Below, piece after piece: positions 22,593-58,470 of a DNA stretch of 64,000 bases. The notes below the pieces were generated by a model that saw only the letters and a list, made by a program, of their open reading frames with translations, was not told where the DNA came from and made no database searches. A program made the position numbers and the translations under genes. Position 1 is the stretch's first letter; each line of letters begins with the position of its first letter. The stretch is from Bacteroidota bacterium (GTDB taxonomy: Bacteria > Bacteroidota > Bacteroidia > Chitinophagales > LD1), in NCBI GenBank assembly GCA_026391075.1, contig JAPLES010000081.1:1-64000 (forward strand), read 5' to 3'.

Positions 22593-25500
22593 ATGAAATC
22601 TTTTCTAACCACTGTTGCCAAAACAGTTTTAGTAATTACGCTTTTTTTAGTGACTACTATTTCAATTGCTCAAACTTCAAACAACGGTTGGAAAGCAAAG
22701 TTCGAAACACAAAAAGTGTTTATCGAAAACAAAGGACAATTCAATCATTTTAATAGCGAAGCCAAAAGCCCAATTCTTTATGGAACAGAATATGCCAATG
22801 CGCAATTTTTGTTTACAAAAACCGGATTGACTTACCGCTTAACAAAAAAAGAATTTCCATCTGCCGAAGAAAAAGGAGAGCGCGAGAACGACATGCTTCA
22901 AGAACTGAGAAAAGGCAAAACCATGAGCCATGATGAAATGGAGGAAGAAGAGAATAGAGTTGAAACAAGAATTGAAAAGGTAACCATGCGCTGGGTGAAC
23001 GCTAACCCACAAGTTGAAATAGAAGCTATAGATGCCGTTGAAAATTATTTCAATTTTGGTTTAGGTAACACAAGCATCAATGAAGTAAAAGGCTATAAGA
23101 AATTGGTTTATAAAAATCTTTACCCAAAAATTGATGTGGTGTATGTGTTTCATCCTGATAATGGAATTGAGTATTCTTTTATTCTACATCCAGGAGCCGA
23201 TGCCTCGCAAATTAAAATGAATTATGCAGGAGCCGAAAAAATTACAATGGATGCTAAAAACAACATTCATTTAAAAACAGACTTAGGCGATATCGTGGAC
23301 CACGCTCCACAAAGTTTTTACTCAGCCAACAATCAACAAAAAATTAGTTCACAATTTATTCGCAATGGGAATGTGGTTTCGTTTGTGTTAGGTAATTATA
23401 ACCACCACCAAGAAATAACAATTGATCCTTGGACTGTTACGCCTAATTTTCCAACTACACAATGGGATTGCGTTTGGGAGTGTGAAAAAGATGCAGCAGG
23501 AAATGCTTATTTGATTGGTGGCACTTCGCCCATGCAATTATTAAAATACAATGCAGCAGGCGCATTACAATGGACTTACAACACGCCTTACGACACTACT
23601 TCATGGCTAGGAACTTTTGCCGTGGACAATGCAGGTAATTCTTACGTAACTCAAGGCTCTATAGCGGCTATTCAAAAAATAAGTCCCGCTGGTGCTATGA
23701 TTTGGAGTAATCCAAATCCGGGAGGTATTTTTGCCTCAACTGAATTTTGGAGCATCTCTTTTAATTGCGATCAAACTAAATTGGTGATAGGTGGAACAGG
23801 TAACACCCTTCCTCCACAGCCCTATGTTTATCAAGTAGACATGAGTAACGGAAATGTTACAGCTAACATTCGCGTTACAGACGGAGCTTTATTCCCTACT
23901 GAAGAAGTTCGCTCGATTACCGCCTGCGGAAACGGGAAATATTATTTTATGACACACGATTCAATTGGTTACTTGAATCAAAATTTTAGTCTTTGCGGTA
24001 CCCCAGCACAAGCCAAACAATATTTCGATAACACGTATCATTTGGGTTACAAATGCGAAAACTTTCGCTACAACAACACCGGCATTGAAGCAATAAAAAC
24101 CTACGGAGGGTTTGTTTATGTGAACAGAGGTAACCGTTTAGATAAACGTAATTTTACTACAGGAGCAATTATTGCGAGTGTGGCAATTCCTGGTGGCGCC
24201 TTCACCACCCAATTTGGAAGTAGTTTTAACGAGAACAGTGGAATTGATATTGATGACTGCGGAAATATTTACGTTGGCTCGAAAGGACAAGTAGTAAAAT
24301 ACAATCAGAGTTTAACGCAGTTAGCTACTTATCCTGCAACTACCAACGGTTCCACTATTTACAATGTTTATGATGTAGAAGTTAGCACGGGTGGAAATAT
24401 TATTGTAGCAGGTTCTACCGGCACTTCCGGTTCAGGCGCAAGAACAGGAGCTATGCAACAAATTGCAGTGGGTGCTTGTGGCATTGTTGCCATTACTTGC
24501 TGCGATGCAAGCGTTTGTCAAATGGGACCTTATTGCACTACCGATGGTGCGGTTACTCTAACGGCATCAACGCCTGGTGGTACTTGGAGCGGTGTAGGAA
24601 TTACAAATACATCAACCGGTGTTTTTAATCCTACTACGGCAGGTCAAGGCACACATTATATTGTAAATACAATTGGGTGCGGAAGTGATTCAATAGCTAT
24701 CACAGTAAATATTTGTGCTTCACTTTCTGCGTGTTTAGAACAGAATGGAAACATTACTGCTACAGGCGGAGCCGGACCTTACACTTGGTATGAACAAGAT
24801 ACTACGCAAGATTGCAGTGCTTGTCTTTTAGGTATTTGCAATTTTCCTCCCGGTTGCTCACCAGCTACCTATACATGGAATCAATTTGCCAGCGGTAATA
24901 CCGAAGCCGTGCCTGAATATCCTGTTCGAATAGTTGATATCAACAACAATCAATTAATTATTACCAGCACTACTGTTTTACCTAATTGCACAGCATGTTC
25001 CATAACAGCAAGTGCATCTACTACCGGAACCACTTGTGGAAGTAGTAACGGAAGCGCAACAGTAAATCCAAGTGGAGCTACACCAACAGGCTATAACTGG
25101 AGCAACGGTGCAACCACCGCTACAGCTTCTAATCTTGCTGCAGGAAATTATACGGTAACCGTTACCGCCAGCGGTTGTTCAGTAACTGCAGCTGCTACTG
25201 TGGCATCGTCAACAGGCATTACTGTAAACGCAACAACTACAAATGCCGGATGTACAGCAACAGGTTCGGCTACAGCAAATGTAACAGCAGGTACTGGGCC
25301 TTTCACATATACGTGGACAGGCGGAGCGAATACACAAACTGCATCTAATCTTTCAGCAGGAAATTATACGGTAACTGTAAGCGGTGCGGGAAATTGCACA
25401 GCAACTGCTACTGCAATTGTTGGTGCATCGGGTAGCGGTGTCGGTCTTTCTTCATCGGCTACTCCAGCATCATGTGGTAATAGTAATGGCACTGCAAGCG

Positions 25501-26777
25501 TTACTACTACTAGCGGAACAGGACCATTTACTTATTTGTGGAGCACGGGTGGAACCACTTCCTCTTTACTAAATCTTGCATCGGCAACTTATACTGTTAC
25601 AGTAACCGGAAGTGGAAACTGTACTGCTACAGCAAGCATCAATGTGAGTTCAACTGCAGGAGTTTCTCTTACTACATCAGGAACAAATACAGGTTGCACA
25701 TCTACAGGTTCTGTAACCGCAACAGTTACAGCGGGCACAGGTCCTTACACTTACATTTGGAGTAATGGAGCTACTACACAAACAGCAAGCAACCTTGCCG
25801 CAGGAACTTACAATGTTACGGTAACAGGCGCAGGAAACTGCACAGCTACTGCTACTATGAGCATAATTTCATCAGGAGGAATTACACTTACGCCAACTTT
25901 TGTAAATACGAGTTGCGGAAACAATAACGGTTCTGCAAGTGTAACTGCAACAGGCGGAAGTGGTACTTATACTTACAGTTGGAGCGGTGGCGGAAGTGGT
26001 TCTTCGCTCTCAAATTTAGCGGCAGGAACTTATACCGTAACAGTGAATGATAACGTGGGGTGCAGCTCCACCGCAAGCATGATTATTAGCCCTAGCGGAA
26101 ACGGAAGCGTGCATATTACCGCAGCCAATCCTATTATGTGCGCAGGTGATAGCATTCAGGTTTGTGCCGATAATACCTACAATTCTTATTTATGGAATAA
26201 CGGTGCTACTACACAGTGCATTTATGCACACCAGGCAGGAAACTACTATGTAACTGTTACGGATGCAGGAAGCTGCACCGCCTCCTCTAATCACGTACCT
26301 GTTCAAGTATATCCATTGCCACCGGTTTCTATCAGCGTAAATGGCGATACACTTACCGCATACAATGCGGTAACTTATCAGTGGTATTTAAATGGTGGAG
26401 CCATCAACGGAGCTACTAATCATATTTACATTGTTACACAAAATGGAACGTACACACTTGCAATTACAGATACTAATGGTTGTCGTGTAAGTTCAAATCC
26501 TATTTTGATAAATACTGTTGGTATTGCTTCGTTATTCGAAGGCGAACAATTGAAAGTTTATCCTAACCCGCTTGAAAATGGAAACTGGACTTTGGAAACA
26601 GGCGTTAATGCTATTGGAAGTAAAGTCGAAATATTTGACGACAATGGCAGATTGGTTTATCGCGCGGATATTGCAAATGCTAAATCTGAAATTGAATTGA
26701 AGGTGGCTAGTGGCGTTTACATGATGCGCGTATCGAGTGCTAAACATGAAATTACGCTGAAGTTAATTAAGTTGTAG
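22593..26777 (+). CDS. Large T9SS-sorted surface protein with SprB-like repeats (type A sorting domain)
   Basis: 1394 residues. A signal peptide (to about IAQ, residue 27) is followed by a domain opening KVFIENKGQFNHF (about 42-280), a fold often found at the start of Bacteroidota gliding-type surface proteins. A region of propeller-like repeats follows (about 285-620). A series of 60-75-residue SprB-like repeats (about 800-1170) has the motif YxWSNGATTxTASNLAAGxYTVTV. Then come Ig-like segments, and a type A sorting domain starts near LKVYPNPLENGNW and ends VYMMRVSSAKHEITLKLIKL. It is expected to be exported by T9SS and anchored or released. Binding partner unknown. A two-armed repeat element begins right after its stop. 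Confidence 0.88.
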   Translation: MKSFLTTVAKTVLVITLFLVTTISIAQTSNNGWKAKFETQKVFIENKGQFNHFNSEAKSPILYGTEYANAQFLFTKTGLTYRLTKKEFPSAEEKGERENDMLQELRKGKTMSHDEMEEEENRVETRIEKVTMRWVNANPQVEIEAIDAVENYFNFGLGNTSINEVKGYKKLVYKNLYPKIDVVYVFHPDNGIEYSFILHPGADASQIKMNYAGAEKITMDAKNNIHLKTDLGDIVDHAPQSFYSANNQQKISSQFIRNGNVVSFVLGNYNHHQEITIDPWTVTPNFPTTQWDCVWECEKDAAGNAYLIGGTSPMQLLKYNAAGALQWTYNTPYDTTSWLGTFAVDNAGNSYVTQGSIAAIQKISPAGAMIWSNPNPGGIFASTEFWSISFNCDQTKLVIGGTGNTLPPQPYVYQVDMSNGNVTANIRVTDGALFPTEEVRSITACGNGKYYFMTHDSIGYLNQNFSLCGTPAQAKQYFDNTYHLGYKCENFRYNNTGIEAIKTYGGFVYVNRGNRLDKRNFTTGAIIASVAIPGGAFTTQFGSSFNENSGIDIDDCGNIYVGSKGQVVKYNQSLTQLATYPATTNGSTIYNVYDVEVSTGGNIIVAGSTGTSGSGARTGAMQQIAVGACGIVAITCCDASVCQMGPYCTTDGAVTLTASTPGGTWSGVGITNTSTGVFNPTTAGQGTHYIVNTIGCGSDSIAITVNICASLSACLEQNGNITATGGAGPYTWYEQDTTQDCSACLLGICNFPPGCSPATYTWNQFASGNTEAVPEYPVRIVDINNNQLIITSTTVLPNCTACSITASASTTGTTCGSSNGSATVNPSGATPTGYNWSNGATTATASNLAAGNYTVTVTASGCSVTAAATVASSTGITVNATTTNAGCTATGSATANVTAGTGPFTYTWTGGANTQTASNLSAGNYTVTVSGAGNCTATATAIVGASGSGVGLSSSATPASCGNSNGTASVTTTSGTGPFTYLWSTGGTTSSLLNLASATYTVTVTGSGNCTATASINVSSTAGVSLTTSGTNTGCTSTGSVTATVTAGTGPYTYIWSNGATTQTASNLAAGTYNVTVTGAGNCTATATMSIISSGGITLTPTFVNTSCGNNNGSASVTATGGSGTYTYSWSGGGSGSSLSNLAAGTYTVTVNDNVGCSSTASMIISPSGNGSVHITAANPIMCAGDSIQVCADNTYNSYLWNNGATTQCIYAHQAGNYYVTVTDAGSCTASSNHVPVQVYPLPPVSISVNGDTLTAYNAVTYQWYLNGGAINGATNHIYIVTQNGTYTLAITDTNGCRVSSNPILINTVGIASLFEGEQLKVYPNPLENGNWTLETGVNAIGSKVEIFDDNGRLVYRADIANAKSEIELKVASGVYMMRVSSAKHEITLKLIKL

Positions 26778-26842
26778 ATAGATGAATGGGTAATTGGATG
26801 AATGGATTTAAAACATCCAACCTTCCAGTTATCCATCTATCC
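26774..26842. repeat. Two-armed octad element after the 22593-26777 gene
   Basis: The left arm carries words like GATAGATG, GGGTAATT, GGATGAAT, GGAT (to 26807). The right arm (26814-26842), read in reverse, gives GGATAGAT, GGATAACT, GGAAGGTT, GGAT. The arms form an imperfect inverted repeat starting immediately at the TAG stop codon. Confidence 0.8.
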
Positions 26843-26914
26843 GTTACTTGCCTGTTACATCCTTTTTGAATTATTTATCGTCTTTAAAATATCACTAACC
26901 CAAACCCCTGACCA

Positions 26915-27325
26915 GTGAAATTATTTTTAACGGCAATTACTTGCCTACTCTCCTCTTCGGTTTTCTCTACTGATTGGACCACGTACTTCAAAAATGAGAA
27001 AGTAGAAATTCAATATCAATATGCCGATTGCCATGATGAGCACAATGGCATTCATCAGCAAAAAATATTTCTACGCTTTGTAAATCTATCGAACCAAAAA
27101 GAAGAAGTTTCTTTTACCAAAGAACTCACCTTCAGCAATGGAAAAACAAGTAATGCAGATGCAAGAATATTTACAGTTCAACTAAATGCTAACGAAGCAA
27201 AAACCGGAGATTGTTCAAACAAAGAGGACAAAGCGTTGTTTCTTTTTTCTAAACAGTTGAACTTTACTTCAACTGAGTTGAGAAAATTTGAATTGAAAAA
27301 TATTTCTGTAAAAACAATTCAATAA
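26915..27325 (+). CDS. Small secreted protein of unknown function
   Basis: 136 residues with a GTG start followed at once by a signal peptide (KLFLTAITCLLSSSVFS). The mature part looks like one small beta-sandwich, with two Cys (YADCHDEHNG and TGDCSNKED) that might form a disulfide. No family is recognised. It ends 9 bp before the 27335 gene and is probably cotranscribed with it. A role as a partner of that protein is only positional inference. Confidence 0.72.
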   Translation: MKLFLTAITCLLSSSVFSTDWTTYFKNEKVEIQYQYADCHDEHNGIHQQKIFLRFVNLSNQKEEVSFTKELTFSNGKTSNADARIFTVQLNANEAKTGDCSNKEDKALFLFSKQLNFTSTELRKFELKNISVKTIQ

Positions 27326-27334
27326 ACAGAAACA

Positions 27335-30300
27335 ATGAAAAAGATTTTACCCATCCTTCTCAGTCTTTTCATTACCCAAAATATTTTTTCACAAGGTTGT
27401 ACGGTTACCGGTTCATCACCTTCCGATACTATCGTTTGCGGTGAAAGAATTCTACTTTCTGCATTCGGGCAAGCGCAAGGAACCGCTTTACTTTCCGAAA
27501 ATTTTAATACGGGTTCTTATGGCCCGGGCTGGACATCTACCCAACAAGCCATGTGGAATAATCCATGCAGCCCCGGTGGAGCGGATGGTACTACGCATAT
27601 TTGGATGGGTAATTCAGGACCTGTTCCAAGAGTTTTGACAACAACTTCGTTTAACTTAAGCAGTTGTGCAGTGACGGGTGTTACTATTTGTTTTGATATG
27701 CTCTTTGCCACTCAAGGTAATTCAGCACCATGCGAAGGACCCGATGAACCACAAGAAGGCGTATTTCTTCAATACTCTATTGACAACGGAGCTACCTGGA
27801 TTGACATACATTACTTTGACCCTAATGGAGGAAATGATGCTTCGCTAATAAATTGGAACAATTGGTGTTTCCCTGTTCCAGCTGCTGCACTTACAGCTAA
27901 TACAAGGTTTCGTTGGTTTCAAGATGCCGATTCAGGAGCTGACTATGACCACTGGGGAATTGACAACGTAGTAATTTATTGCAATGACCCGAGTTATAAT
28001 ATTATGTGGCAGCATGATGGTTATAATTTAGGCCCTGTAGGAGGAACCGATCCAAATGCCGTAGCACCTCATACTACTACAAGCTATGTAGTAACCATGA
28101 GTAATGGAACTTTAACCTGCAGAGATACTATTACAATCGTTGTTGTAAATCCAACAATAGTGGTGAATGCCGGAAACGATACAGTGGTGTGCAACGGACA
28201 ATGCGCAACGTTAAATGCTATTGCAAAAATTATTCAGAAGCCTGCTAAAACACCCACGTATCGTAATCAAGAAACTGCAACAATAACCGGCACACCTGGC
28301 TTTCCTGGTTTCCCTCCTTTTATTCCGGCTACACCAGGCACTGCTTTTTTGAACATGGATATAAATATCACCAACCTTAATTTATCTACCGTTCCCAATA
28401 ATTATATCACCAGTGTTTGCATAGGTTCGTTGAGTATGTTTTTGTTTTCAGGAATCGAGATTTTTGATATTTGGTTGGTGTGCCCAAGTGGCGATTCTAT
28501 TTTACTGGTAAAAGACAGCACCTTAACCGGAAACAATTTAACCAACACTTGCTTTGTTCCTGCCGGAAGTAATATCACTTCTGCCTCTTCACCTTACACA
28601 GGAAGTTTTGCCCCTAATCAATCTTTCAATAATTTAAGTGGTTGCGATGCAAATGGAGTTTGGTCACTTCACTTTCAAGCAATTTTTAATGGATTCACTT
28701 TACCCACTGGAAATTTTAATAGTTGGTCAATTTCTTTTAACGATCCTGAAATTTCATACGTTGGAAATTTTAGTTGGAACCCTACCGCGGGTATGTCGAA
28801 TCCTTTGACACTTACACCAACGGTCTGTCCACCACCTACGGCTTACACACTTACCGTTTCAGATACAGCAGGCTGTGTTACACAAAACGATGTTATCAAT
28901 GTAACCACACAAGCTTGCTGCGGATTAAGTGCAACCGTTACACAAGTGCAACCAACATGTGGTGGCACTAATGGAAATATAAGCGTAACTCCAGTACCTG
29001 CGGGAACATATTCGTATGCATGGAGCGATGGACCTTCTGTTTTACAAAACAGAACCGGATTAGGTGCTGGAACATACACCGTAAATATAACAGATGTAAA
29101 TATTCCTACTTGCACATTTGATACAACTATTACACTGAATTCAAATAGCACGTTGAACGTATCGTTTACTAATCCAATCAATCCTACATGTGCCGGTAGC
29201 GATGGCTCTATTACTTTTAGTTTAAGCGGTGGCACTGCGCCTTACGCAATAACTATTGATACCAACGGAACTTCGTTCACTATCAATTCGCCTTTTCCAA
29301 TTCCTTCTACTACTATCAGTACAGTTCCGGCAGGTGCTGTAAACATTTCGGTGACCGATGCTTTAGGATGCACAGCAACAGTAAGTGCAGTTTTAACTGC
29401 GCCTGTTAATTGTTGCGGATTTACAGTAAGTGCCGTTCTTGTTCAACCAACTTGCGGACAAAACAACGGAAGTGTTTCGCTTGCTCCGGCAGGTGGCTCC
29501 GGTAATTATACTTACGCGTGGGGCGGTGGACAAAATACTTCATCCGTTACAAGTGTAGGTGCGGCAACTTATTCAGTTACCATTACAGATAACGGTTTCG
29601 TAAATTGTTTCATTGATACCACTTTCACGTTGAATTCAAACAGCACCTTGAATGTTTCATTGACGAATCCTGTGAATCCGACCTGTGCAGGAAGCGATGG
29701 CTCCATCACTTTTAGTTTAGGCGGTGGAACTGCTCCTTATGCCATCACCATTGATACCAACGGAACTTCGTTCACTATTAATTCACCTGTGCCTATTCCT
29801 TCAACAACCATCAATACAGTTCCGGCAGGTGCTGTAAATATTTCGGTGACAGATGCAGTTGGCTGTGTGGCTACTGCAAATGCTGCTTTAGTTGCGCCTG
29901 CAAATTGTTGCACGTTTACTATTAGTGCCATGCTTGCACAGCCAGCATGCGCGCAAACAAACGGAAGCATTGCTATCACTTCAGCGAATGGCTCAGGAAA
30001 TTATACTTACGCATGGGGTGGCGGGCAAAATACTTCCACTGTTACAACACTTGGCGCAGGAAATTATTTAGTAACCATTACCGATAATGCTTTCGCCAAT
30101 TGTTTTATTGATACCTCTTTTTCATTGAGCAATCCGAATGCACCGGTTATAAATAATATTGCTGTAGTTGATGAAACCTGTAATGGAAACGATGGCTCTG
30201 TTACTGTAACTGCAAATGGCGGCACTGGAGCGCTGAGTATTTTGTGGAGTAATTCGGCTGTAACATTTACGCTGTTAAACATGGCGGCAGGCAGTTATGG

Positions 30301-31564
30301 TTTCACGGTTACTGATGCTTCGGGGTGTGCCTCTGCTGGAACTGCAACAGTGAATCCCGCAACAGGTTGTTGCTTTTTACAAACTGCTGTTACACTTATT
30401 CCACCAACATGCGGATTGAACAATGCAACACTTACGGTAAACATTTCTATTGCCGGAGTTCCGCCTTACACTTATTCTATTGATGGAATAAATTATCAAG
30501 GACAAAATATTTTCAACAACGTAGCTACAGGAAATTACAATGTGATAACTCGTGACGTAAACGGATGTAGTGATACTGTGGCTTCTATTGTTCCTGCTTC
30601 AAGCAACAATTTGAATGTAACTACTGTTGCTACCAACGTTACCTGCTTTGGTGCAGGAGATGGAACAGCAACGGTAAATCCTTTAGGTGGAAATCCTCCG
30701 TATAGTTTTGTTTGGAGTAATGCGGGAAACACTGCAACTGTTTCAAATCTCTCTACGGGAAATTATGATGTAACAGTAAGCGACCTTACTAACTGTACTG
30801 GAACTGCCACGGCAAATATTACTGAACCACAAGCACTAGCCGTTTCGCTTGGTAACGACACCACACTCTGTATTGGCTTGCCTGTAATGCTTAATGCAGG
30901 AAGCGGCTATTCAACTTACTTGTGGAGCACCAATGAAATTACCCAAACCATTGTTCCTACTATTGCAGGAATTTATTCTGTTGTGGTTACCGATGTAAAC
31001 GGATGTTCTGCTACTGATGCTGTGAATGTGAATTTTGTTGCACTGCCGCTTCTTGATTTAGGCGAAGACAAAATTGCTTATGAAGGAACATACGTTGGTT
31101 TGATTTCGCTGGTAAATGATGGAGCTACAACTGCAGGAACTTACAACTGGCAACCAGATACTTTGCTCAGTTGTATAGCTTGTCAAAATACAGTAGCGTA
31201 TACTTCCGATACGATTTCTTACACACTTACTTTCACCGATAATTATGGTTGCGCAGCAACCGATAACATCAATTTGTTTGTGATTCCTCTTGGAAATGTT
31301 TACTGGCCCAACGCATTTACACCAACAGGTGATGGCAACAACGATGTGTATCTGCCATTCGGTAGCGGTGTGAAACAAATCAACTGGTCAATATTCAATC
31401 GTTGGGGCGAAAAGGTTTTTGAAAGCGATAATTTCTTTAGCGGCTGGGATGGAAATTACAAAGGTGCCCCATTGCCAGTGGGCGTTTATGTTTACTCAGC
31501 CACCGCTGTAAAAATGGATAACAACACCAAGAAGTTTAAAGGAAGCGTGACCTTGATTCGTTGA
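27335..31564 (+). CDS. Large T9SS-sorted surface protein with P-like domain and SprB-like repeats (type B sorting domain)
   Basis: 1409 residues. Signal peptide (MKKILPILLSLFITQNIFSQ). A domain rich in Trp and acidic residues (about 50-215, DADSGADYDHWGIDNVVIY) resembles lectin/MAM-like domains. A P-domain-like region (about 310-470) has IFDIWLVCPSGDSILLV and GVWSLHF. SprB-like repeats with paired Cys at CCGF/CCTF follow (about 530-1100). The C terminus is a gliding-type CHU_C (type B) domain with PNAFTPTGDGNND, FNRWGEKVFES and GVYVYSATAV. Two 160-residue units (about 600-760 and 765-925) are near copies. The gene is followed directly by a two-armed repeat element. Confidence 0.88.
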   Translation: MKKILPILLSLFITQNIFSQGCTVTGSSPSDTIVCGERILLSAFGQAQGTALLSENFNTGSYGPGWTSTQQAMWNNPCSPGGADGTTHIWMGNSGPVPRVLTTTSFNLSSCAVTGVTICFDMLFATQGNSAPCEGPDEPQEGVFLQYSIDNGATWIDIHYFDPNGGNDASLINWNNWCFPVPAAALTANTRFRWFQDADSGADYDHWGIDNVVIYCNDPSYNIMWQHDGYNLGPVGGTDPNAVAPHTTTSYVVTMSNGTLTCRDTITIVVVNPTIVVNAGNDTVVCNGQCATLNAIAKIIQKPAKTPTYRNQETATITGTPGFPGFPPFIPATPGTAFLNMDINITNLNLSTVPNNYITSVCIGSLSMFLFSGIEIFDIWLVCPSGDSILLVKDSTLTGNNLTNTCFVPAGSNITSASSPYTGSFAPNQSFNNLSGCDANGVWSLHFQAIFNGFTLPTGNFNSWSISFNDPEISYVGNFSWNPTAGMSNPLTLTPTVCPPPTAYTLTVSDTAGCVTQNDVINVTTQACCGLSATVTQVQPTCGGTNGNISVTPVPAGTYSYAWSDGPSVLQNRTGLGAGTYTVNITDVNIPTCTFDTTITLNSNSTLNVSFTNPINPTCAGSDGSITFSLSGGTAPYAITIDTNGTSFTINSPFPIPSTTISTVPAGAVNISVTDALGCTATVSAVLTAPVNCCGFTVSAVLVQPTCGQNNGSVSLAPAGGSGNYTYAWGGGQNTSSVTSVGAATYSVTITDNGFVNCFIDTTFTLNSNSTLNVSLTNPVNPTCAGSDGSITFSLGGGTAPYAITIDTNGTSFTINSPVPIPSTTINTVPAGAVNISVTDAVGCVATANAALVAPANCCTFTISAMLAQPACAQTNGSIAITSANGSGNYTYAWGGGQNTSTVTTLGAGNYLVTITDNAFANCFIDTSFSLSNPNAPVINNIAVVDETCNGNDGSVTVTANGGTGALSILWSNSAVTFTLLNMAAGSYGFTVTDASGCASAGTATVNPATGCCFLQTAVTLIPPTCGLNNATLTVNISIAGVPPYTYSIDGINYQGQNIFNNVATGNYNVITRDVNGCSDTVASIVPASSNNLNVTTVATNVTCFGAGDGTATVNPLGGNPPYSFVWSNAGNTATVSNLSTGNYDVTVSDLTNCTGTATANITEPQALAVSLGNDTTLCIGLPVMLNAGSGYSTYLWSTNEITQTIVPTIAGIYSVVVTDVNGCSATDAVNVNFVALPLLDLGEDKIAYEGTYVGLISLVNDGATTAGTYNWQPDTLLSCIACQNTVAYTSDTISYTLTFTDNYGCAATDNINLFVIPLGNVYWPNAFTPTGDGNNDVYLPFGSGVKQINWSIFNRWGEKVFESDNFFSGWDGNYKGAPLPVGVYVYSATAVKMDNNTKKFKGSVTLIR
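29137..29880 (+). repeat. Internal tandem duplication in the 27335 gene
   Basis: The segment near 29146-29391 is repeated near 29634-29879 (period about 488 bp). Both copies encode PTCAGSDGSITFSL, TAPYAITIDTNGTSF and TVPAGAVNISVTDA. Many differences between copies are synonymous, so the protein is more conserved than the DNA. Confidence 0.8.
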
Positions 31565-50570: not shown

Positions 50571-52091
50571 ATGAAAAACTCTTTAATCCTTTTGCTTTTG
50601 TTGACTGGTCAAATTTCATTTGCGCAATACTGCGGTAACTCAGGCCCTGCACAGTGCACGCCTAGCGGTACTTTTATTACGCCAGGGTTTTATCCTGTTC
50701 CCTCGCAATTACCTTCTTTTGTAAATGGTCAGGCGTCTACTACTGTTTTGGAATTTAAAAATTTCAACGTGGTTAATTTCCAAGGAAATTTTTACACGGT
50801 TAATTCGCTACGCATTGATTCAGTAGGAAATTTACCTGCCGGTTTATGTTGGGCTACGAACAAAGTGAACAACACGTTTATTAATCAAGAACAAGGTTGT
50901 GTGCGAATAAACGGAACACCGAGTGGCCCTGCGGGTGAATACAAATTGAAAATATTGGTAACCGTAGATGTAGGAGTTTCGCTGCAAGTAGATGCAGCTG
51001 CAGCAGGAGTAAATTATTACGTGCGTTTAATTGACAGTTGCTCAACTGCACCTGCGGTGGATACTTTGCAGATAGCCGATTTTGTTGGTTACAATATTCC
51101 CGGTTGTTTGTATGTAAGCTTAGGTGCCGACCAAACAGCCTGCAATGGAACAAACATAAACTTGAGTTCAACCATTACAGCCGGCAAAGCTCCGTTTACT
51201 TACATGTGGCAAAGTTTAAGTGGCGATGCCGTTGTGTGCGACACGTGTGCAAGTCCTTCGGTATTGCTCACACAAAATTCAAGCTTCGCGGTTTCCATTA
51301 CCGATAGCACCAATGCTGTAGCTACTGATACAGTGAACTATTCCCCTATTGGAAGCGCAATTAACTTTGCCGTTGTTTCTGCCGGTGCCGATACGTTTTG
51401 CATAGGTGGTTCTGTAAGTTTAATAGCTGCTTATAGCGACTCTGTAACTTATCAATGGCAATGGAATACAAATGATATTGTAAATGCCAACGACACAAAT
51501 TTTGTTGCACTGAATACTGGTTTGTATACTGTTTTTTTTACTCATGCAAATGGATGCACCGCTACCAGCAATGTTATTAGTGTAGTAGTAAATCCTTTGC
51601 CGGTGGTTACTTTTCAATTACCGAGCGATACGGTTTGTGTGAACGCAAGTGCGTTTGCATTAAGTGGTGAAAATCCTACCGGTGGAAATTTTGCCGGGAT
51701 AGGAGTGAGTGCAAATATGTTTACTCCAGCCACCGCAGGAACAGGACCCAGAGTATTGCTTTACACTTTTACCGATTCAAACAATTGTGTCAACAGTGCA
51801 AAGGATACCATACTAGTAGAAGTATGCACTGGGCTCGAAGAAATTACAGCTAATGATTTATTACAGCTTTACCCGAACCCCACTAACGGAAGCCGTGTGG
51901 AGGTGACGGTGAATAGTGCATTAGCAGGAAGCAAGATGAAAGTGTATGACGCAAACGGGCGACTGCTTAAAGAAATTGTGCTAACTAATGAGAAGTGCGC
52001 TTTAAACATTTCGAACATGGAAGCGGGAGTTTATATGGTGAAAGTGGAAAACGGAGCCAAGATAATTCAGAGAAAGTTTGTGAAGGAATAG
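50571..52091 (+). CDS. T9SS-sorted secreted protein (type A sorting domain)
   Basis: 506 residues from the ATG at 50571, which is followed at once by a signal peptide (KNSLILLLLLTGQISFAQ). A longer frame overlapping the acyltransferase gene is rejected. An N-terminal domain (about 20-170, CGNSGPAQCTPSGTFITPGF) is followed by Ig-like/PKD-like repeats with LGADQTACNGTNINL and SAGADTFCIGGSVSL. The type A sorting domain starts near LLQLYPNPTNGSRVEV and ends GVYMVKVENGAKIIQRKFVKE-like. Function unknown. A bidirectional terminator follows. Confidence 0.87.
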   Translation: MKNSLILLLLLTGQISFAQYCGNSGPAQCTPSGTFITPGFYPVPSQLPSFVNGQASTTVLEFKNFNVVNFQGNFYTVNSLRIDSVGNLPAGLCWATNKVNNTFINQEQGCVRINGTPSGPAGEYKLKILVTVDVGVSLQVDAAAAGVNYYVRLIDSCSTAPAVDTLQIADFVGYNIPGCLYVSLGADQTACNGTNINLSSTITAGKAPFTYMWQSLSGDAVVCDTCASPSVLLTQNSSFAVSITDSTNAVATDTVNYSPIGSAINFAVVSAGADTFCIGGSVSLIAAYSDSVTYQWQWNTNDIVNANDTNFVALNTGLYTVFFTHANGCTATSNVISVVVNPLPVVTFQLPSDTVCVNASAFALSGENPTGGNFAGIGVSANMFTPATAGTGPRVLLYTFTDSNNCVNSAKDTILVEVCTGLEEITANDLLQLYPNPTNGSRVEVTVNSALAGSKMKVYDANGRLLKEIVLTNEKCALNISNMEAGVYMVKVENGAKIIQRKFVKE

Positions 52092-52154: not shown

Positions 52155-52192
52155 AACAAAAAAGCACTTCGAGTTTCGAAGTGCTTTTTTGT
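52155..52192. terminator. Bidirectional terminator
   Basis: AAAAAAGCACTTCG and CGAAGTGCTTTTTT (perfect, 14 bp) around a short loop. It serves the T9SS gene at 50571-52091 (+) and the five-gene operon ending at 52208 (-). Confidence 0.92.
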
Positions 52193-52207
52193 TTTCCTAT
52201 CGCTTTA

Positions 52208-52924
52208 CTACTTCTTTTTCATCTTCTTAAAACTATCGGGAATATCCCAGCAGTAAACCACAGCAAGGGCGTGCACTGCATCGGGATACTTGGAGCTGAA
52301 ATCGGGCTGCGCCATGTAGTAGATATTGATGCTGTGCATTTTTTTGAAACCGTATTCAATGCCGCCAATGAAAGCTACTCTGCGCACGTTTATGCCGCGG
52401 TATTCAAACAAAGTGTAAGCTTCGGCAGTTACATAAGCGCCCCAGTTCTTTTTAAAATCCCAACGAAACTCCAGACGGTTTCGCCAGTAGTTGGTAGGGA
52501 AATGACCGTGCTCGTAACTGCGCGCAAAGTATTCGTTCTCGTGAAAGTAAGCGGTGCGGTAGGCGAAGGTCCAGTCTTTGTATTTGTAACGCGCCTTAAC
52601 GCCAAACTCGAAACGGTAAAGATTTTTTTGCGGTGTGTTTACTCCGCGAAACTGAAAATCGGGTTGAAGAAATTTGAAGGCTTTATACTTTACGCTGAAG
52701 TAGAAGTAGTGCCCTTCTATACTTGGGTTGATAACATCGGCACGCATAACGTATTGCGCATTTGCAGAAACACCGTGTTTAAAATCTTTACTGATTTTTA
52801 CGCTCGGCCAAAGCTGAAAAGTGCTATGATAGTTGTTATAGCCCAGGTCGGCATTGTCCTGCGCACGTAGTGCATACTGCGTGAATAAAAAAATAAGCAG
52901 AAAAATAATTCGCGACAACTTCAT
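52208..52924 (-). CDS. DUF2490-like outer-membrane beta-barrel
   Basis: 238 residues. A signal peptide (SRIIFLLIFLFTQYALRAQ) precedes amphipathic strands such as YFYFSVKYKAFKFLQPDFQFRGV and RNRLEFRWDFKKNWGAYVTAEAY, the pattern of DUF2490 proteins. An equally long open frame on the other strand (52136-52870) is judged a shadow. It is the last gene of the VTC/DUF4956 unit, 46 bp after DUF4956 and just before the terminator. A role as an outer-membrane exit or anchor for the unit is inference. Confidence 0.8.
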   Translation of the reverse strand: MKLSRIIFLLIFLFTQYALRAQDNADLGYNNYHSTFQLWPSVKISKDFKHGVSANAQYVMRADVINPSIEGHYFYFSVKYKAFKFLQPDFQFRGVNTPQKNLYRFEFGVKARYKYKDWTFAYRTAYFHENEYFARSYEHGHFPTNYWRNRLEFRWDFKKNWGAYVTAEAYTLFEYRGINVRRVAFIGGIEYGFKKMHSINIYYMAQPDFSSKYPDAVHALAVVYCWDIPDSFKKMKKK

Positions 52925-52970
52925 TTTTGCATTTGGTATTTACTTTGGACTTCCGTCTTCCAACTCCTTT

Positions 52971-53705
52971 TCAATCATCATCCGCTCCGGTTCCCAATGA
53001 ACTTGTTTCGTTTTCGGCAGAAAGATAGAAGGCACGTATGCGGGCAATGTCGCGCAGGAAATCAATTTTCATAATTTCTACACGGTGAATAGGCAAGCCC
53101 GTTCTGTTTTTTAAATCGTCAATCATTTGTTCGCGCGTGTCGGGTTTAATTAAATCAATACGCTCGTAAACAATCTCTTTCCAGTTTTCGTGTTCAAGCG
53201 AAAGCTGACGGTCGAGTACGATTATCATTCCAAGAATCATGGCATCGGCAATAAGAAGAACAAAGAGGCTGTGTTCCATATTGTAGATAGCACTGAAAAA
53301 TCCTTTTTCAGGCAGTATGGCTACGAAATCGTTTAAACTGGTGTTGATGTCGGCAAGGGCATTGATGATACCAATGGTAACACAGATGAAGAAGTAACCC
53401 ATTTCGCGAATAGGCACCGCAACCGTACGGTAACGCAGAATGGAGAAGATGGCAAAGAGACCAAAAGCAAAACCGAGTTTCAGTTTCAAACTGCTCAACA
53501 AAAAGCAGATAAGAAAGTTGACGGTATTGAAAAGGAAGAAGGTGAACAGGAAGTCTTTGTTTTTGTGGCGCGGGTAATAAATGAAGCGCACGAGCACTAC
53601 AATCATAATGAGATTGAGCCCGTAACGCAATAAGAAATCGGCAAGATTGCCGCTGGCAAAAATTCCTGATGCTACTACCTCAGCTACTGTATCGGTTGTT
53701 TCCAT
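52971..53705 (-). CDS. DUF4956 membrane protein
   Basis: 244 residues with several hydrophobic segments (about 29-43, 53-70, 73-90, 103-120, 145-165). A cytoplasmic C-terminal part has IHRVEIMKIDFLRDIARI, typical of DUF4956. The family is usually found next to VTC-domain proteins, as here, where the two genes overlap by 26 bp. The family role is unclear; it may handle the product of the VTC enzyme or anchor it at the membrane. Confidence 0.87.
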   Translation of the reverse strand: METTDTVAEVVASGIFASGNLADFLLRYGLNLIMIVVLVRFIYYPRHKNKDFLFTFFLFNTVNFLICFLLSSLKLKLGFAFGLFAIFSILRYRTVAVPIREMGYFFICVTIGIINALADINTSLNDFVAILPEKGFFSAIYNMEHSLFVLLIADAMILGMIIVLDRQLSLEHENWKEIVYERIDLIKPDTREQMIDDLKNRTGLPIHRVEIMKIDFLRDIARIRAFYLSAENETSSLGTGADDD

Positions 53706-54471
53706 TCTTAATTATTTTTTCGATTTTGATAAAATTGGGTTTAAAGGCGTTGTTCTTAATATCTTCCATCATGGCTACTGCCGTTGAGTATTTGCTGAAG
53801 CCCACTTCTTCAAAATTTCGTTGGTTGAAAATTTTAATAATGGGACTTCCCGTGGCACTCTTTTCTGTTTTTACTTCGGCAATAACGAGTTCGGGAAATT
53901 CTTTTTTGTTTTTAAAGTTGTCGAAGGTTACATGCAGGTCGAGCGTCAAGCGCTCGTTCATTTTTTTACTTGCCAGCGTAATGCGGTTGAAATAAATCCA
54001 CATCTTTTTTTTCAGTTGTGTTTCGTCTAACTGATGATGCGTTACCAATTTCAATTCTTCATCGGTCAATGTCAATTTCAAATCTTCCTGCTTCAGTCGT
54101 TTCTTATCGGTGCGGTTACCTTTTACTTTGTATTTAACTTCAAAAAACACGAGACCCGAATCGGAATATCTGCGATAGCGAACTTTTAAACGATTCAGCT
54201 TTCCGTTGTGATGAAATTTGTAAAGCTGGTAATCATCGGTATCAAAATACAACGACTCATAGCGAAACATCCTTCCTCCGTCAATTTCCAAAGCGTAGTA
54301 GTCTTCTTTTATCTCTTTTAAAATTTCGGCAAACTGTTCGATGTGAAAAACATACTTGGTGTCGATGCGGTTAAGCATACGCACTTCGTCTAATCCCTTT
54401 AAAGTGATTGGCGAAAAAGTGCTCAGCACGTCTTCAATCTTCTTCTCTTCTGCCTGATAATTAAACTGCAT
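53680..54471 (-). CDS. VTC-domain (polyphosphate polymerase-like) protein
   Basis: 263 residues. The domain is the catalytic tunnel fold of yeast Vtc4, which makes polyphosphate from ATP. Basic and acidic tunnel positions are visible: NRIDTKYVF (about 34-42), YESLYFDTDDY, KLNRLKVRYRRYSD, FFEVKYKVKGNRTDKKR and a late VIAEVKTE, followed by the terminal KYSTAV motif. No membrane helices or N-terminal SPX domain. Whether this bacterial member makes polyphosphate or another phosphate product is not known from sequence. It overlaps DUF4956 by 26 bp and is 1 bp from the lipoprotein gene. Confidence 0.88.
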   Translation of the reverse strand: MQFNYQAEEKKIEDVLSTFSPITLKGLDEVRMLNRIDTKYVFHIEQFAEILKEIKEDYYALEIDGGRMFRYESLYFDTDDYQLYKFHHNGKLNRLKVRYRRYSDSGLVFFEVKYKVKGNRTDKKRLKQEDLKLTLTDEELKLVTHHQLDETQLKKKMWIYFNRITLASKKMNERLTLDLHVTFDNFKNKKEFPELVIAEVKTEKSATGSPIIKIFNQRNFEEVGFSKYSTAVAMMEDIKNNAFKPNFIKIEKIIKNGNNRYSS

Positions 54472-54472
54472 T

Positions 54473-54859
54473 TCAATAGTAGTTTATCAGGTCGCGCACT
54501 TCAACAGTTTCTTTCGGCTTGTCAATAGTTACATGCACCACATCATAAGTTTGCTTGAGCGGGCAGGTATCGCATTTGCTCAACACCCAAACCGTGTAAT
54601 CGCCCGTGTGCAGATAAGGGAAAGCGTATTCGCCTGTATAGGATGAATTAGCATTCTGGTCTTCCCAGGTATTGCTGCCATACGACAGATAAACGTTCAC
54701 ACCCGATTTATAACCTGAGTCGGTGCCCGTAGTTTTGTAAGCATAAACTTTGCCGTGTATAGTTGCTTGTCCTCCATCGCCCGGTTCTTTTTTGCACGAA
54801 CTGAGCACCACAAAAAACAAAGCCGCGAGTAGAATTGAAATCTTAATTCCGTTTTTCAT
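54473..54859 (-). CDS. Small lipoprotein with a carboxypeptidase-regulatory/CnaB-like fold
   Basis: 128 residues. Lipobox FVVLSSC (Cys22) after a hydrophobic signal; the mature part starts KKEPGDGG. The remaining 100 residues look like a beta-sandwich: ATIHGKVYAYK, GVNVYLSYGS, YTGEYAFPYLHTGDYTVWV, and a last strand VEVRDLINYY. A CDTC pair (residues 95-98 or so) is notable. It is 12 bp downstream of the propeller gene and 1 bp upstream of the VTC gene, so it belongs to the operon. Function unknown. Confidence 0.8.
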   Translation of the reverse strand: MKNGIKISILLAALFFVVLSSCKKEPGDGGQATIHGKVYAYKTTGTDSGYKSGVNVYLSYGSNTWEDQNANSSYTGEYAFPYLHTGDYTVWVLSKCDTCPLKQTYDVVHVTIDKPKETVEVRDLINYY

Positions 54860-54871
54860 AAATCAGTTTTG

Positions 54872-57775
54872 TTATTGAACAATAAGTTTCGATTCAAAAA
54901 TATGATTGTCGTTTACTACTCGCAGAAAATAAATACCGTGCTGCCAGATTGAAGATTGAAGATTGAAGATTGAAGATTGGGGAATTGCAGAATAGATTTC
55001 CTTACCTAATACATCATACACTTTCAATTCGCTCTTTGTGTTTTGTGTAAACATCGAGCTGCTAACTCTGAACTCATCTCGCGAAGGATTAGGATAAACA
55101 CTTACGTTCATTTCGCTTTGTAAATCATTTATACCCGAAACGAGATTGTATTTAATCGTTAGAAAATCTTTTTGATTCGGCACATCGAAAGTTCCCCAGC
55201 CCGTTACATAAATACTTCCGTTATCGTTTAGCACCGCATTGCTTCCATCACTTGAAGTTGAGAAACCATTGAAAGAAATATGACTGAGTTCCACTCCTGC
55301 CGCTGAATATTCAACGGAGGTTCCATCTAAGTTTCTGTCGCCCAAAGTTCCGTTATCGGTTTGCCCCGTTACATAAACCACACCTGTAGCATCTACACTT
55401 ACATCGTAAGCGGCATCAAATGAATTTGCAGTGCCGTTAAAAGTTTTATCCCAATCTTTGTTTCCTGTGGTGCTGTATTTAACGGTAACATAATCTTCAT
55501 TCACTGCAGAAGTAGCATCCACATCTACCGAGCCCGCGATATAAATATTTCCTAAAGCATCAACAGTCATGTTGTTTACATCATCATCGCCATTTCCTGA
55601 ACCGTTATACAATTGCAACCACTGTTGTGTGCCCGCGCTGTTGTATTGAATAGTAAGTAAATCAATATTAGTAGCACTCGTTCCATCGCGGTCGCTTTTT
55701 GCCGCGACAATTACATTGCTGTTGTTATCTACTTTAATTTTCACCAGCACATCATCACCAAGATTTGAAACGTAAGTAGCAAATGAAGTAGCAGCCCCAT
55801 TAGCCGAAACATATTTCATTACCTGAATATCATAGTCGGTTCCGTTCCATGTTTTACCCGCAACAAATGCATTGCCCGCGTTATCAAGTGCAATGGAAGC
55901 GGCTTTGTCATCGGCATTACTTGTGCCGTTAAAAAATTTTACCCATTGCAGTGCACCTGCTGCGCTATACTTCAGGGTTATAAAATCGTTGTTGGTTAAG
56001 AGCGTAGCATCGTTATCGGCAACTCCTGTTACATAAATATTTCCCGAAGCATCAACGGCTAAATCGCTCGCGGTTTCATCGGTGGTAAGTCCTGCATCGT
56101 AGTTTCTTGTCCAGATGGTATCGCCTGCAGGATTGTATTTAATAATGAAGATATCGTAGTTGTTTGCAGCGTTTTTACTTCTGCCCGCTACATAAATATT
56201 TCCTGAGCCATCTGGCGCAATACCTATAGGTTCATCGGTATCGCTGTTAGGGCCATTCAATGTTTTTGTCCAGACTTTATTTCCGGCAACATCATATTTA
56301 ATGGTGCAGAAATTTCGGTCTTCGCCATATACATAAGTATAGCCCGTGCTGTAAAGCACACCACTGCTCATGCAAAGAGCAACTCCTTTCTCAGTAAATT
56401 CTCCACTGCCGTTATAAGTTTTGTTGAACTGCAATGTGCCTGTATTATCGTGTTCAACCAATGCCGCATCTTTCATACCCGTTGAATTTACCAGTGCGCC
56501 AACGGTGTAAATATTTCCCGAAGCATCAAACAGACTCGCAGAACCGTTATCATCAACATTTGAATTGCCGCCAATGATTTTTACAAATTGTTCGGCACCA
56601 AGTCCGTTGTATTTCAAAATCAGCATATCGTTGTTCGTAGTTACAGAAGCTGAAACGTTTACAGTTCCGGTAACAATAGTTACATCACTTGCATTTACGG
56701 TAATATGATTTGCGCTTTCATTCTTTCCATTCGCATTGGCATAAGCCGTTGACCAAAGCTGCGCACCGTTTGATGGCGCATAAGCCACGGTTTGAATATC
56801 GGTTTGAAAGCCGTTGTTCTTGGTTCCTGTTACTACAACTTCATTTTCGTTACCCGCAATATCTGTTGCCTGGTCATCACCATTCGAATCAAAAATTTTG
56901 TAAGTACTCCATCCGTTTGCGCCATTCGCTGCAAGATATTTCATGGTCAAATAATCATCATCGTTTCCATTATTTGAGCGACCCGTTACATACACATCGC
57001 CTGTAGCATCTACATAAACACCTGTGGCGCGGTCGGTCTTTCCTGCCTGGTCGAGTGTTATTGTCCATTGCGCCACCAGCGAAGAATTGTATTTAATGGT
57101 AGCGTAATCATCTTTATTAGAAGTAGTTTTCGATTTGCCCGTAACCACAACATTTCCCGAAACATCAATTGCCACATCGGCCAGCACATCATCTAAACTA
57201 TTTGCACCGTTGAAAAAAGCAGTGGCTTGTTGTGCGCCTGCCGAAGAATATTTTACCACGATGTAATCGTTATTCAAATTGGTATTGTATCCGTATCCGG
57301 CAATGAACACATTGCCCGAAGCATCGGCAACCACAGCTACACCATAGTCATCTAGGTGAGCGGTGTAATCAAAAGATTGTAACCACAATGAATCTCCATT
57401 CGCGTTATACTCCGCTACTGTAAGGTCTTTACCGTTTAATGTTTTACTCGTTCCACCAACAACAATATGACCGCTGTTATCGAAACAAAGCGAACTGATT
57501 TCATCGTTACCATTACCTGTGCCGTCATACGTTCTTGTCCAAAGCGTATCGCCTGATAAATTGTATTTAATCAGCAAAAAATCTTTTCCGTTTCCGGCAT
57601 TCATAGTATAACCGCCTGCATAAAAATTTCCTGCGCCATCAGTAATTACTGCGTTCAGTTTATCAGAGTTATCGCCTGTGCCAGCAAGCGATGTAGCCCA
57701 CTGCTGGGTTAGGTTTTGTGAATGCGCAAAAATACATGTAAGAACTGCGAAGCAGAAGAGTAATGATTTTTTCAT
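54872..57775 (-). CDS. T9SS-sorted protein with SBBP-like propeller repeats
   Basis: 967 residues. Signal peptide (KSLLFCFAVLTCIFAHS). About 15 repeats of roughly 50 residues (20-880) share the pattern DGAGNFYAGGYT, KYNxxGDTLWTRTYDGTGNGNDE, as in SBBP repeats that fold as beta-propellers. The type A sorting domain starts near NVSVYPNPSRDEFRV and ends with KLIVQ. Within it, the stretch IFNLQSSIW is encoded by a heptad array (54946-54980). First gene of the VTC/DUF4956 operon, with a good promoter 33 bp upstream. How a surface protein serves this unit is not known. Confidence 0.88.
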   Translation of the reverse strand: MKKSLLFCFAVLTCIFAHSQNLTQQWATSLAGTGDNSDKLNAVITDGAGNFYAGGYTMNAGNGKDFLLIKYNLSGDTLWTRTYDGTGNGNDEISSLCFDNSGHIVVGGTSKTLNGKDLTVAEYNANGDSLWLQSFDYTAHLDDYGVAVVADASGNVFIAGYGYNTNLNNDYIVVKYSSAGAQQATAFFNGANSLDDVLADVAIDVSGNVVVTGKSKTTSNKDDYATIKYNSSLVAQWTITLDQAGKTDRATGVYVDATGDVYVTGRSNNGNDDDYLTMKYLAANGANGWSTYKIFDSNGDDQATDIAGNENEVVVTGTKNNGFQTDIQTVAYAPSNGAQLWSTAYANANGKNESANHITVNASDVTIVTGTVNVSASVTTNNDMLILKYNGLGAEQFVKIIGGNSNVDDNGSASLFDASGNIYTVGALVNSTGMKDAALVEHDNTGTLQFNKTYNGSGEFTEKGVALCMSSGVLYSTGYTYVYGEDRNFCTIKYDVAGNKVWTKTLNGPNSDTDEPIGIAPDGSGNIYVAGRSKNAANNYDIFIIKYNPAGDTIWTRNYDAGLTTDETASDLAVDASGNIYVTGVADNDATLLTNNDFITLKYSAAGALQWVKFFNGTSNADDKAASIALDNAGNAFVAGKTWNGTDYDIQVMKYVSANGAATSFATYVSNLGDDVLVKIKVDNNSNVIVAAKSDRDGTSATNIDLLTIQYNSAGTQQWLQLYNGSGNGDDDVNNMTVDALGNIYIAGSVDVDATSAVNEDYVTVKYSTTGNKDWDKTFNGTANSFDAAYDVSVDATGVVYVTGQTDNGTLGDRNLDGTSVEYSAAGVELSHISFNGFSTSSDGSNAVLNDNGSIYVTGWGTFDVPNQKDFLTIKYNLVSGINDLQSEMNVSVYPNPSRDEFRVSSSMFTQNTKSELKVYDVLGKEIYSAIPQSSIFNLQSSIWQHGIYFLRVVNDNHIFESKLIVQ
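54946..54980 (+). repeat. Heptad array inside a T9SS sorting domain
   Basis: Four perfect copies of AGATTGA and a fifth AGATTGG. The array is in frame and codes for part of the sorting domain. Confidence 0.9.
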
Positions 57776-57807: not shown

Positions 57808-57836
57808 CGAAAATAGTAATTGTTCAAGGCGGGCAA
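57808..57836 (-). promoter_or_regulatory. Promoter of the VTC/DUF4956 operon
   Basis: On the minus strand TTG (57834-57836), an 18-bp spacer and TATTTTCG (57808-57815, one base from consensus), 32 bp before the ATG of the propeller gene. Confidence 0.55.
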
Positions 57837-57912
57837 AACCATTACACTTCTGTGCGAATGATTTCAAACTGTTCATGAGATTAAGATTTTTCTATCTTGC
57901 TTTTAGTTCCCT

Positions 57913-58470
57913 ATGGAAAACAATTCGAAAGCATATACCGATAACCAAAAAGATGTGGCGAAGTTTTTTGCGAAGCTGCTCGTTATTTGGGTTTCGTGGA
58001 AAGTAATTCTGTTTGCGTTGGGTGTAGAAAGCAAACCAATCAGCGAAAGATTTTTTCCGCGGGTAAGCACCGAGTGGGAATACCTCAATAATGAAGTTCG
58101 TTGGATTGTATTAGATGGTGCCGAAACAGTACTTAATGCATTAGGTTACTCCACCGAAAACAGCGGCTACCTCCTCAACATAAAAGATAAACAAGGCATT
58201 GCACTTGGCAATTACTGCCTCGGCTTTCAACTGATGTATTATTTCATTATGCTAGTAATTATTGCGCCATTCGGTTTCATCAAAAAAATTCTTGCATCTG
58301 TTTCGGGTATTTTCATCACCATCTTTTTAAACATCTTTCGCATAGCTGCGCTTTGCTGGTTAGTGGTTTTTCATCCCTCCTTAATGGCTATCAGCCACGA
58401 TTATATTTTCAATATAGTTGTGCTGGGTGTACTGATGGTGTTTTATTTTTTTCTGGTTCGTAAAAAGTAA
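57913..58470 (+). CDS. Exosortase/archaeosortase-family protein
   Basis: 185 residues with several membrane segments (about 20-38, 104-120, 124-152, 165-181). Catalytic residues of the family are in place: Cys102 in GNYCLGFQL, Arg143 in NIFRIAALC and His162 in SHDYIFN. Exosortases cut and transfer proteins that carry a C-terminal tripartite signal. The short form suits the Bacteroidota XrtF/XrtN-like groups; the exact group is not certain. No matching substrate or XrtF-associated gene is visible nearby. It is 50 bp upstream of mtgA on the same strand. Confidence 0.87.
   Translation: MENNSKAYTDNQKDVAKFFAKLLVIWVSWKVILFALGVESKPISERFFPRVSTEWEYLNNEVRWIVLDGAETVLNALGYSTENSGYLLNIKDKQGIALGNYCLGFQLMYYFIMLVIIAPFGFIKKILASVSGIFITIFLNIFRIAALCWLVVFHPSLMAISHDYIFNIVVLGVLMVFYFFLVRKK

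Follow-up and report, generated by a model that had tools for sequence, protein, structure and literature searches.

A conserved VTC–DUF4956 gene unit of Bacteroidota that includes a lipoprotein, a DUF2490-like barrel and a predicted cargo protein of the type IX secretion system

Why should the gene of a VTC-domain enzyme stand in a tight row with genes for envelope and secreted proteins? The question is raised by a 64,000-nucleotide stretch of Bacteroidota DNA (positions 1 to 64,000 of contig JAPLES010000081.1, assembly GCA_026391075.1), hereafter the window, in which five open reading frames (ORFs) follow one another on the minus strand from position 57775 down to 52208. They encode an SBBP beta-propeller protein with a signal peptide and, at its C-terminal residues 893-967, a type A sorting domain of the type IX secretion system (T9SS) (54872..57775; 967 residues); a beta-sandwich-like lipoprotein, called LIPO below (54473..54859; 128 residues, lipobox Cys22); a VTC-domain (triphosphate tunnel) protein, which is a probable polyphosphate polymerase (53680..54471; 263 residues, PF09359); a DUF4956 membrane protein (52971..53705; 244 residues, PF16316); and a DUF2490-like outer-membrane beta-barrel (52208..52924; 238 residues), assigned from a PF10677 match below the cut-off together with a structure model. 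The genes overlap or are closely spaced, the successive gaps being 12, 1, -26 (the overlap of VTC with DUF4956) and 46 bp. A preliminary description had proposed this arrangement and these five identities, and both stand after Pfam searches, lipobox inspection, family alignment and structure modelling. We argue here that the five genes very probably form a real, conserved functional unit, and we weigh what this unit may do.

The comparison covered the window's own genome with 60 relatives, 61 genomes in all, and an even sample of the class (296 genomes). We read 114 VTC loci, nearly all of one class and most of them from these two sets; gene calls in the compared loci rest on our own ORF selection, and many of the loci are from metagenome assemblies. 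In the stretch of same-strand genes that surrounds VTC, DUF4956 is found at 96%, DUF2490 at 65% and LIPO at 61% of the 114 loci, and these values are lower bounds, since contig ends cut some units and the profiles miss diverged members. The 31 of the 61 genomes that have VTC are precisely those that have DUF4956 (Fisher p=4e-18), and the 24 genomes of this set with strong LIPO matches (E<1e-30) are all VTC-positive. The VTC profile matched 145 of the 296 genomes of the class sample, a few of these matches being weak or partial, and independent families from across the class share the core. The preliminary description had suggested a search for the five-gene order in other genomes, and this order was found in four close relatives (loci L057, L061, L062 and L064). 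It had also taken a VTC–DUF4956 pair that always occurred without the other three genes as grounds for abandoning the unit; the loci do not behave in this way, as LIPO and DUF2490 accompany the pair at the frequencies given above and the gene at the head of the unit often has a T9SS tail (see below). Chance adjacency is ruled out by the recurrence of the order in four relatives and of the core in independent families. Two kinds of profile artefact were set aside, namely an opposite-strand LIPO match of 2448 residues (L046) and ORFs of about 240-255 residues with two LIPO domains.

Several loci present further arrangements. An extra secreted family of about 130-205 residues, not found in the window, lies between the lipoprotein and VTC in about 30 loci of many lineages (e.g., L035:9385-9975, L100:7348-7941 and L105:6417-6986); it shows the pattern AQSKKxxKKxKIKS and weak RHS/MORN-like matches. 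At the diverged VTC loci L041:4712-8540 and L058, a protein of 830-970 residues, with a beta-helix in L041, separates DUF4956 from VTC. A second strong copy of the LIPO family (E=2e-43) is located on another contig of a VTC-positive genome (G031:C3:530114-530497). On an Aminobacter plasmid (L181:5418-7730), the pair has a further partner of secreted type, a phytase-family esterase-like gene located after DUF4956-VTC.

The gene at the head of the unit connects it to the T9SS. The SBBP protein matches PF06739 (E=2e-18) and, at its tail, both PF18962 (Por_Secre_tail; E=3e-11, 44 bits for a cut-off of 27) and TIGR04183 (E=1e-11, 44.5 bits for a cut-off of 23), scores that predict a T9SS cargo with a type A sorting domain. 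We defined the cargo slot as the gene immediately upstream of LIPO, on the same strand and within 150 bp. With our own profile, a T9SS tail was detected in 27 of 42 slot genes, and a Pfam recheck that included the window gave 29 of 43. By comparison, such tails are present in 6 of 179 upstream partners of comparable close same-strand pairs from the same loci (p=2e-18), in 1 of 24 genes at the same position but on the opposite strand or farther away (p=1e-6), and in 4 of 41 genes directly downstream of the core. The 27 tailed slot genes fall under 19 family labels by hand count; loci within a family are non-independent, so that the p-values are optimistic. Pfam domains detected in the 43 slot genes are lamin-tail (16), CotH (15, the commonest enzyme; some proteins have both), SBBP (5) and Kelch (1). 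The cargo slot is thus conserved and its occupant changes, SBBP being the local version.

In the window and in the four relatives that have the complete order, the head gene of the unit is SBBP. In three other genomes of the same genus (loci L051, L055 and L056), an SBBP protein is encoded downstream of DUF4956 instead; DUF2490 was not found at these loci, L056 being truncated by the end of its contig. Nearly the full length of the SBBP proteins of L051 and L055 can be aligned with that of the window, at 31-33% identity, and full-length relatives are found at L061, L064, L055 and L051, whereas the other SBBP proteins of the window's genome align only partly with it. A specific family of long SBBP proteins, encoded before the core at some loci and after it at others, thus appears to accompany the unit. 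A fixed place for SBBP within the core is ruled out, because it marks one genus and other T9SS cargo occupies the slot elsewhere; within the genus, the core is present without SBBP at L066 and L067. The link to T9SS display drawn in the preliminary description therefore holds as a genomic association, a T9SS-tailed protein heading the unit in 19 families, but SBBP itself is lineage-specific.

Three further observations concern T9SS cargo in this genome. The genome (G000, 3.6 Mb) is unusually cargo-rich, with at least 150 type A tails. Two adjacent proteins of about 1400 residues, with SprB repeats and T9SS tails of type A and CHU_C type, are encoded at 22593-31564 on the plus strand of the window. 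A short tandem repeat of ATTGAAG-type units (54950-54980) lies in the part of the SBBP gene that encodes the T9SS tail.

The VTC protein matches PF09359 (E=1e-25), and its structure model has a predicted local distance difference test (pLDDT) score of 90. A Foldseek search with this model placed yeast Vtc4 structures at the top, ahead of hydrolases and cyclases; phmmer with the single protein retrieved no real relative from the PDB, and a profile was needed. Nine residues (K39, R98, R100, K113, K123, R163, E199, K201 and K227) correspond in the same order to Vtc4 K200, R264, R266, K281, K294, R361, E426, K428 and K458, and these active-site positions are 94-100% conserved among 120 sequences. 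Vtc4 numbering was carried over by profile alignment to 3g3q, whose 295-residue chain was taken as 3 extra residues plus residues 189-480; with this inferred offset, K200, R264, R266, K281, R361, E426, K428 and K458 land on the right kinds of residue. Yeast VTC has been inactivated by changes of R264, R266 and E426 (PMC9911596). Tripolyphosphatases have four glutamates where Vtc4 has basic residues leading the chain away (PMC4641920), and the window protein has the basic residues R35, K123 and K201 at positions, partly inferred, that are acidic in tripolyphosphatases. K123 and K201 thus disfavour a triphosphate tunnel metalloenzyme (TTM) of tripolyphosphatase type, for which acidic residues are described at these two positions; D37, on the other hand, is acidic. 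A polymerase-type tunnel is probably the best reading of these residues and of the modelled fold, and we consider it fairly likely that the protein has polyphosphate polymerase activity.

The DUF4956 protein belongs to its family with a high score (PF16316, E=1e-47; 162 bits for a cut-off of 30.6) and contains several hydrophobic segments and a near-invariant GLFAxFSILRYRT motif. A Streptococcus homologue is described as having four membrane segments of the MgtC type and a cytoplasmic ACT domain (PMC12345266), so that, by analogy, roles as a conduit and as a regulator are both possible for DUF4956. The DUF2490-like protein scores under its family cut-off (PF10677, E=1e-5; 25.9 bits for a cut-off of 29.8), but shares 36-95% identity with its positional counterparts at loci of the same genus (alignment of 60). 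In its model (pLDDT 90), which is that of an outer-membrane barrel, a signal helix precedes 11 long strands in antiparallel order; the alignment and the model support the DUF2490 assignment. The better Foldseek superpositions, at low identity and moderate TM-scores, are with FapF, PgaA, AlgE, NanC and KdgM, which are conduits for polymers or acidic sugars; PgaA denotes here the entry titled bacterial polysaccharide outer membrane secretin. These closest well-superposed barrels also resemble the model in their basic lumen residues. The lowest E-values, to VDAC and TOM, come with TM-scores near 0.2 and mean little. The most conserved residues of the family are arginines (alignment columns 61, 93, 104, 123, 148 and 184), every one of which is placed in the lumen by the parity of its strand position; the window protein has an alanine at column 184. 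DUF2490 is listed as a putative porin family under TC 1.B.81 (PMC4827864). In LIPO, Cys22 is invariant, as are G27, G29, G30 and G36 (42 homologues); Pfam gives weak SdrD_B and CarboxypepD_reg matches, and domains of NOMO2 and SdrD are weakly similar to the family profile.

Both ends of the unit are delimited, as its upstream neighbour at 57913 is divergent and a terminator is located downstream. The tight gene spacing suggests that the five genes are likely carried by one transcript. The terminator (52156..52195) is a strong bidirectional intrinsic hairpin of 20 bp with A and T tracts (-26.3 kcal/mol, z -7.1), common to the five-gene operon and a convergent T9SS gene that ends at 52091, and agrees with the one proposed earlier. 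The proposed promoter fared less well: the sole nearby match to a Bacteroidota-like pattern (57808..57837, minus strand, upstream of SBBP; TTTG-N18-TATTTTCG) is weak, and the 5 matches in the window compare with 9.5 expected from shuffled sequences, no better than chance. A sigma-70 scan gave fewer matches than in shuffles and is uninformative, and Rfam and tRNA scans gave no match. The divergent neighbour (57913-58470, plus strand) is exosortase-like, its score with the XrtY model being 61.6 bits for a cut-off of 160 bits, and adjoins transglycosylase-like and PDZ-protease-like genes.

Among the closest known systems, the yeast VTC complex (the polyphosphate polymerase Vtc4 with Vtc1/Vtc3) shares with the unit the TTM tunnel fold, the catalytic and phosphate-guiding residues and the pairing of the enzyme with a membrane protein. 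In contrast to the yeast complex, no SPX domain and no VTC1-type (DUF202) membrane domain was detected by Pfam in the five window proteins; the VTC protein is unfused, its partner is DUF4956, and it belongs to a set with a lipoprotein, a barrel and T9SS cargo. Another such system is the accessory set found beside Gram-positive pel genes, composed of a VTC-type polymerase, DUF4956 and CotH (PMC7112168, PMC12345266). There too the VTC-type gene adjoins DUF4956, and many Bacteroidota loci also have a secreted CotH protein; the window unit differs in its additional lipoprotein and DUF2490 barrel and in a T9SS-tailed, domain-variable cargo that is SBBP and not CotH. Pfam detected no CotH in the window operon, and the genome has three copies elsewhere; no annotated pel context was seen here, no pel model having been run on the window or the genome. 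VTC and CotH genes are present in one locus of C. perfringens (PMC2879425), and a table of PMC10434189 lists DUF4956 and DUF2490 side by side in Bacteroides thetaiotaomicron (BT3498-BT3499). A 2025 study reported that CotH, the polymerase and DUF4956 are not found together outside pel loci (PMC12345266). We found CotH-VTC-DUF4956 at a Deinococcus locus that has no annotated pel genes in its vicinity, and T9SS-tailed CotH proteins at the head of the unit in Bacteroidota loci, which look like counter-examples to this report. Our literature search found no paper describing the Bacteroidota unit, most subscription journals being outside its coverage, so that novelty is not proven; VTC jointly with DUF4956 gave no paper by joint term. 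The unit is a variant of the known VTC-DUF4956 pair, enlarged by a lipoprotein, a barrel and T9SS cargo.

The preliminary description had imagined a phosphate polymer made inside the cell and displayed or used at its surface, a reasonable if unproven hypothesis. We tentatively favour, with somewhat less than even confidence, an envelope-spanning phosphate-polymer module in which cytoplasmic polyphosphate synthesis would be coupled to the envelope and to a T9SS surface protein. VTC would be located with DUF4956 on the cytoplasmic side of the inner membrane and would polymerise phosphate from ATP through its Vtc4-like tunnel; DUF4956 could anchor, gate or conduct the product, and handling of this anionic product in the periplasm and outer membrane would fall to the lipoprotein and the DUF2490 barrel. 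At the surface, the partner would be the T9SS-secreted protein, which could bind or use the polymer or be modified by it, i.e., the SBBP propeller in this lineage and often a CotH kinase-like or lamin-tail protein elsewhere. Export of polyphosphate with use at the surface is possible, but less likely than not. A detailed route, from the cytoplasm through DUF4956 and an arginine-lined DUF2490 pore to interchangeable T9SS surface proteins, with the polymer as phosphate donor for those of the CotH type, is unlikely. Several observations weigh against the envelope-spanning module. Vtc4 K455 is not conserved in the VTC family, and D37 is acidic where Vtc4 has a threonine; inward arginines are common in small barrels, for salt bridges; and one or more parts are absent from many of the 114 loci. 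The genome also encodes PPK1, which rules out VTC as the sole polyphosphate source. In Streptococcus intermedius, a deletion mutant of the VTC homologue still aggregated and made Pel, and deletions of DUF4956 and CotH altered Pel and aggregation (PMC12345266).

The PPK1 gene would also suit an envelope stress or regulatory unit, in which VTC would be a triphosphatase or a sensor of phosphate or nucleotides and DUF4956, with its MgtC-like membrane part and ACT domain, would control how an envelope polymer or protein is made or secreted, without export of any phosphate polymer. TTM enzymes do include hydrolases and cyclases (PMC4641920), and deletion of the MgtC-type, ACT-containing DUF4956 homologue raised Pel (PMC12345266). 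However, the closest structures to the VTC model are those of Vtc4, above hydrolases and cyclases, and K201 and K123 are basic where tripolyphosphatases are described as acidic (positions partly inferred); we consider the regulatory unit doubtful. The S. intermedius phenotypes bear as well on a version in which VTC-DUF4956 would export polyphosphate or another phosphate compound for extracytoplasmic phosphorylation, by CotH-type kinases or onto secreted cargo, and not for a surface polymer. The common phenotype of the CotH and DUF4956 deletions speaks for it, as do the rank of CotH as commonest enzyme of the cargo slot (15 of 43), the CotH-VTC-DUF4956 sets of Deinococcus and of Gram-positive pel loci, and the association of CotH with VTC in C. 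perfringens. The window cargo, however, has no kinase domain, the CotH copies of this genome are on other contigs, and polyphosphate would be a hypothetical donor for CotH; this version appears unlikely.

There is finally a rather improbable explanation in which only the VTC-DUF4956-LIPO-DUF2490 core is a unit and the SBBP gene is an unrelated neighbour, with a common transcript by accident. The SBBP-free cores of the same genus (L066 and L067) are consistent with it, and tailed neighbours are expected to be common in a genome with at least 150 T9SS tails. Against this, T9SS cargo is strongly enriched at the slot relative to comparable pairs, over 19 families, and within a single genus the long SBBP family can either precede or follow the core.

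If the envelope-spanning module is real, bacteria would have, besides PPK1, a second and envelope-directed polyphosphate pathway. The unit would then provide a genetic handle on polyphosphate reaching the bacterial surface, where it might possibly serve secreted kinases as phosphate donor. For three uncharacterised families, DUF4956, DUF2490 and LIPO, found in roughly half of the genomes sampled from the class, the unit also offers a testable function.

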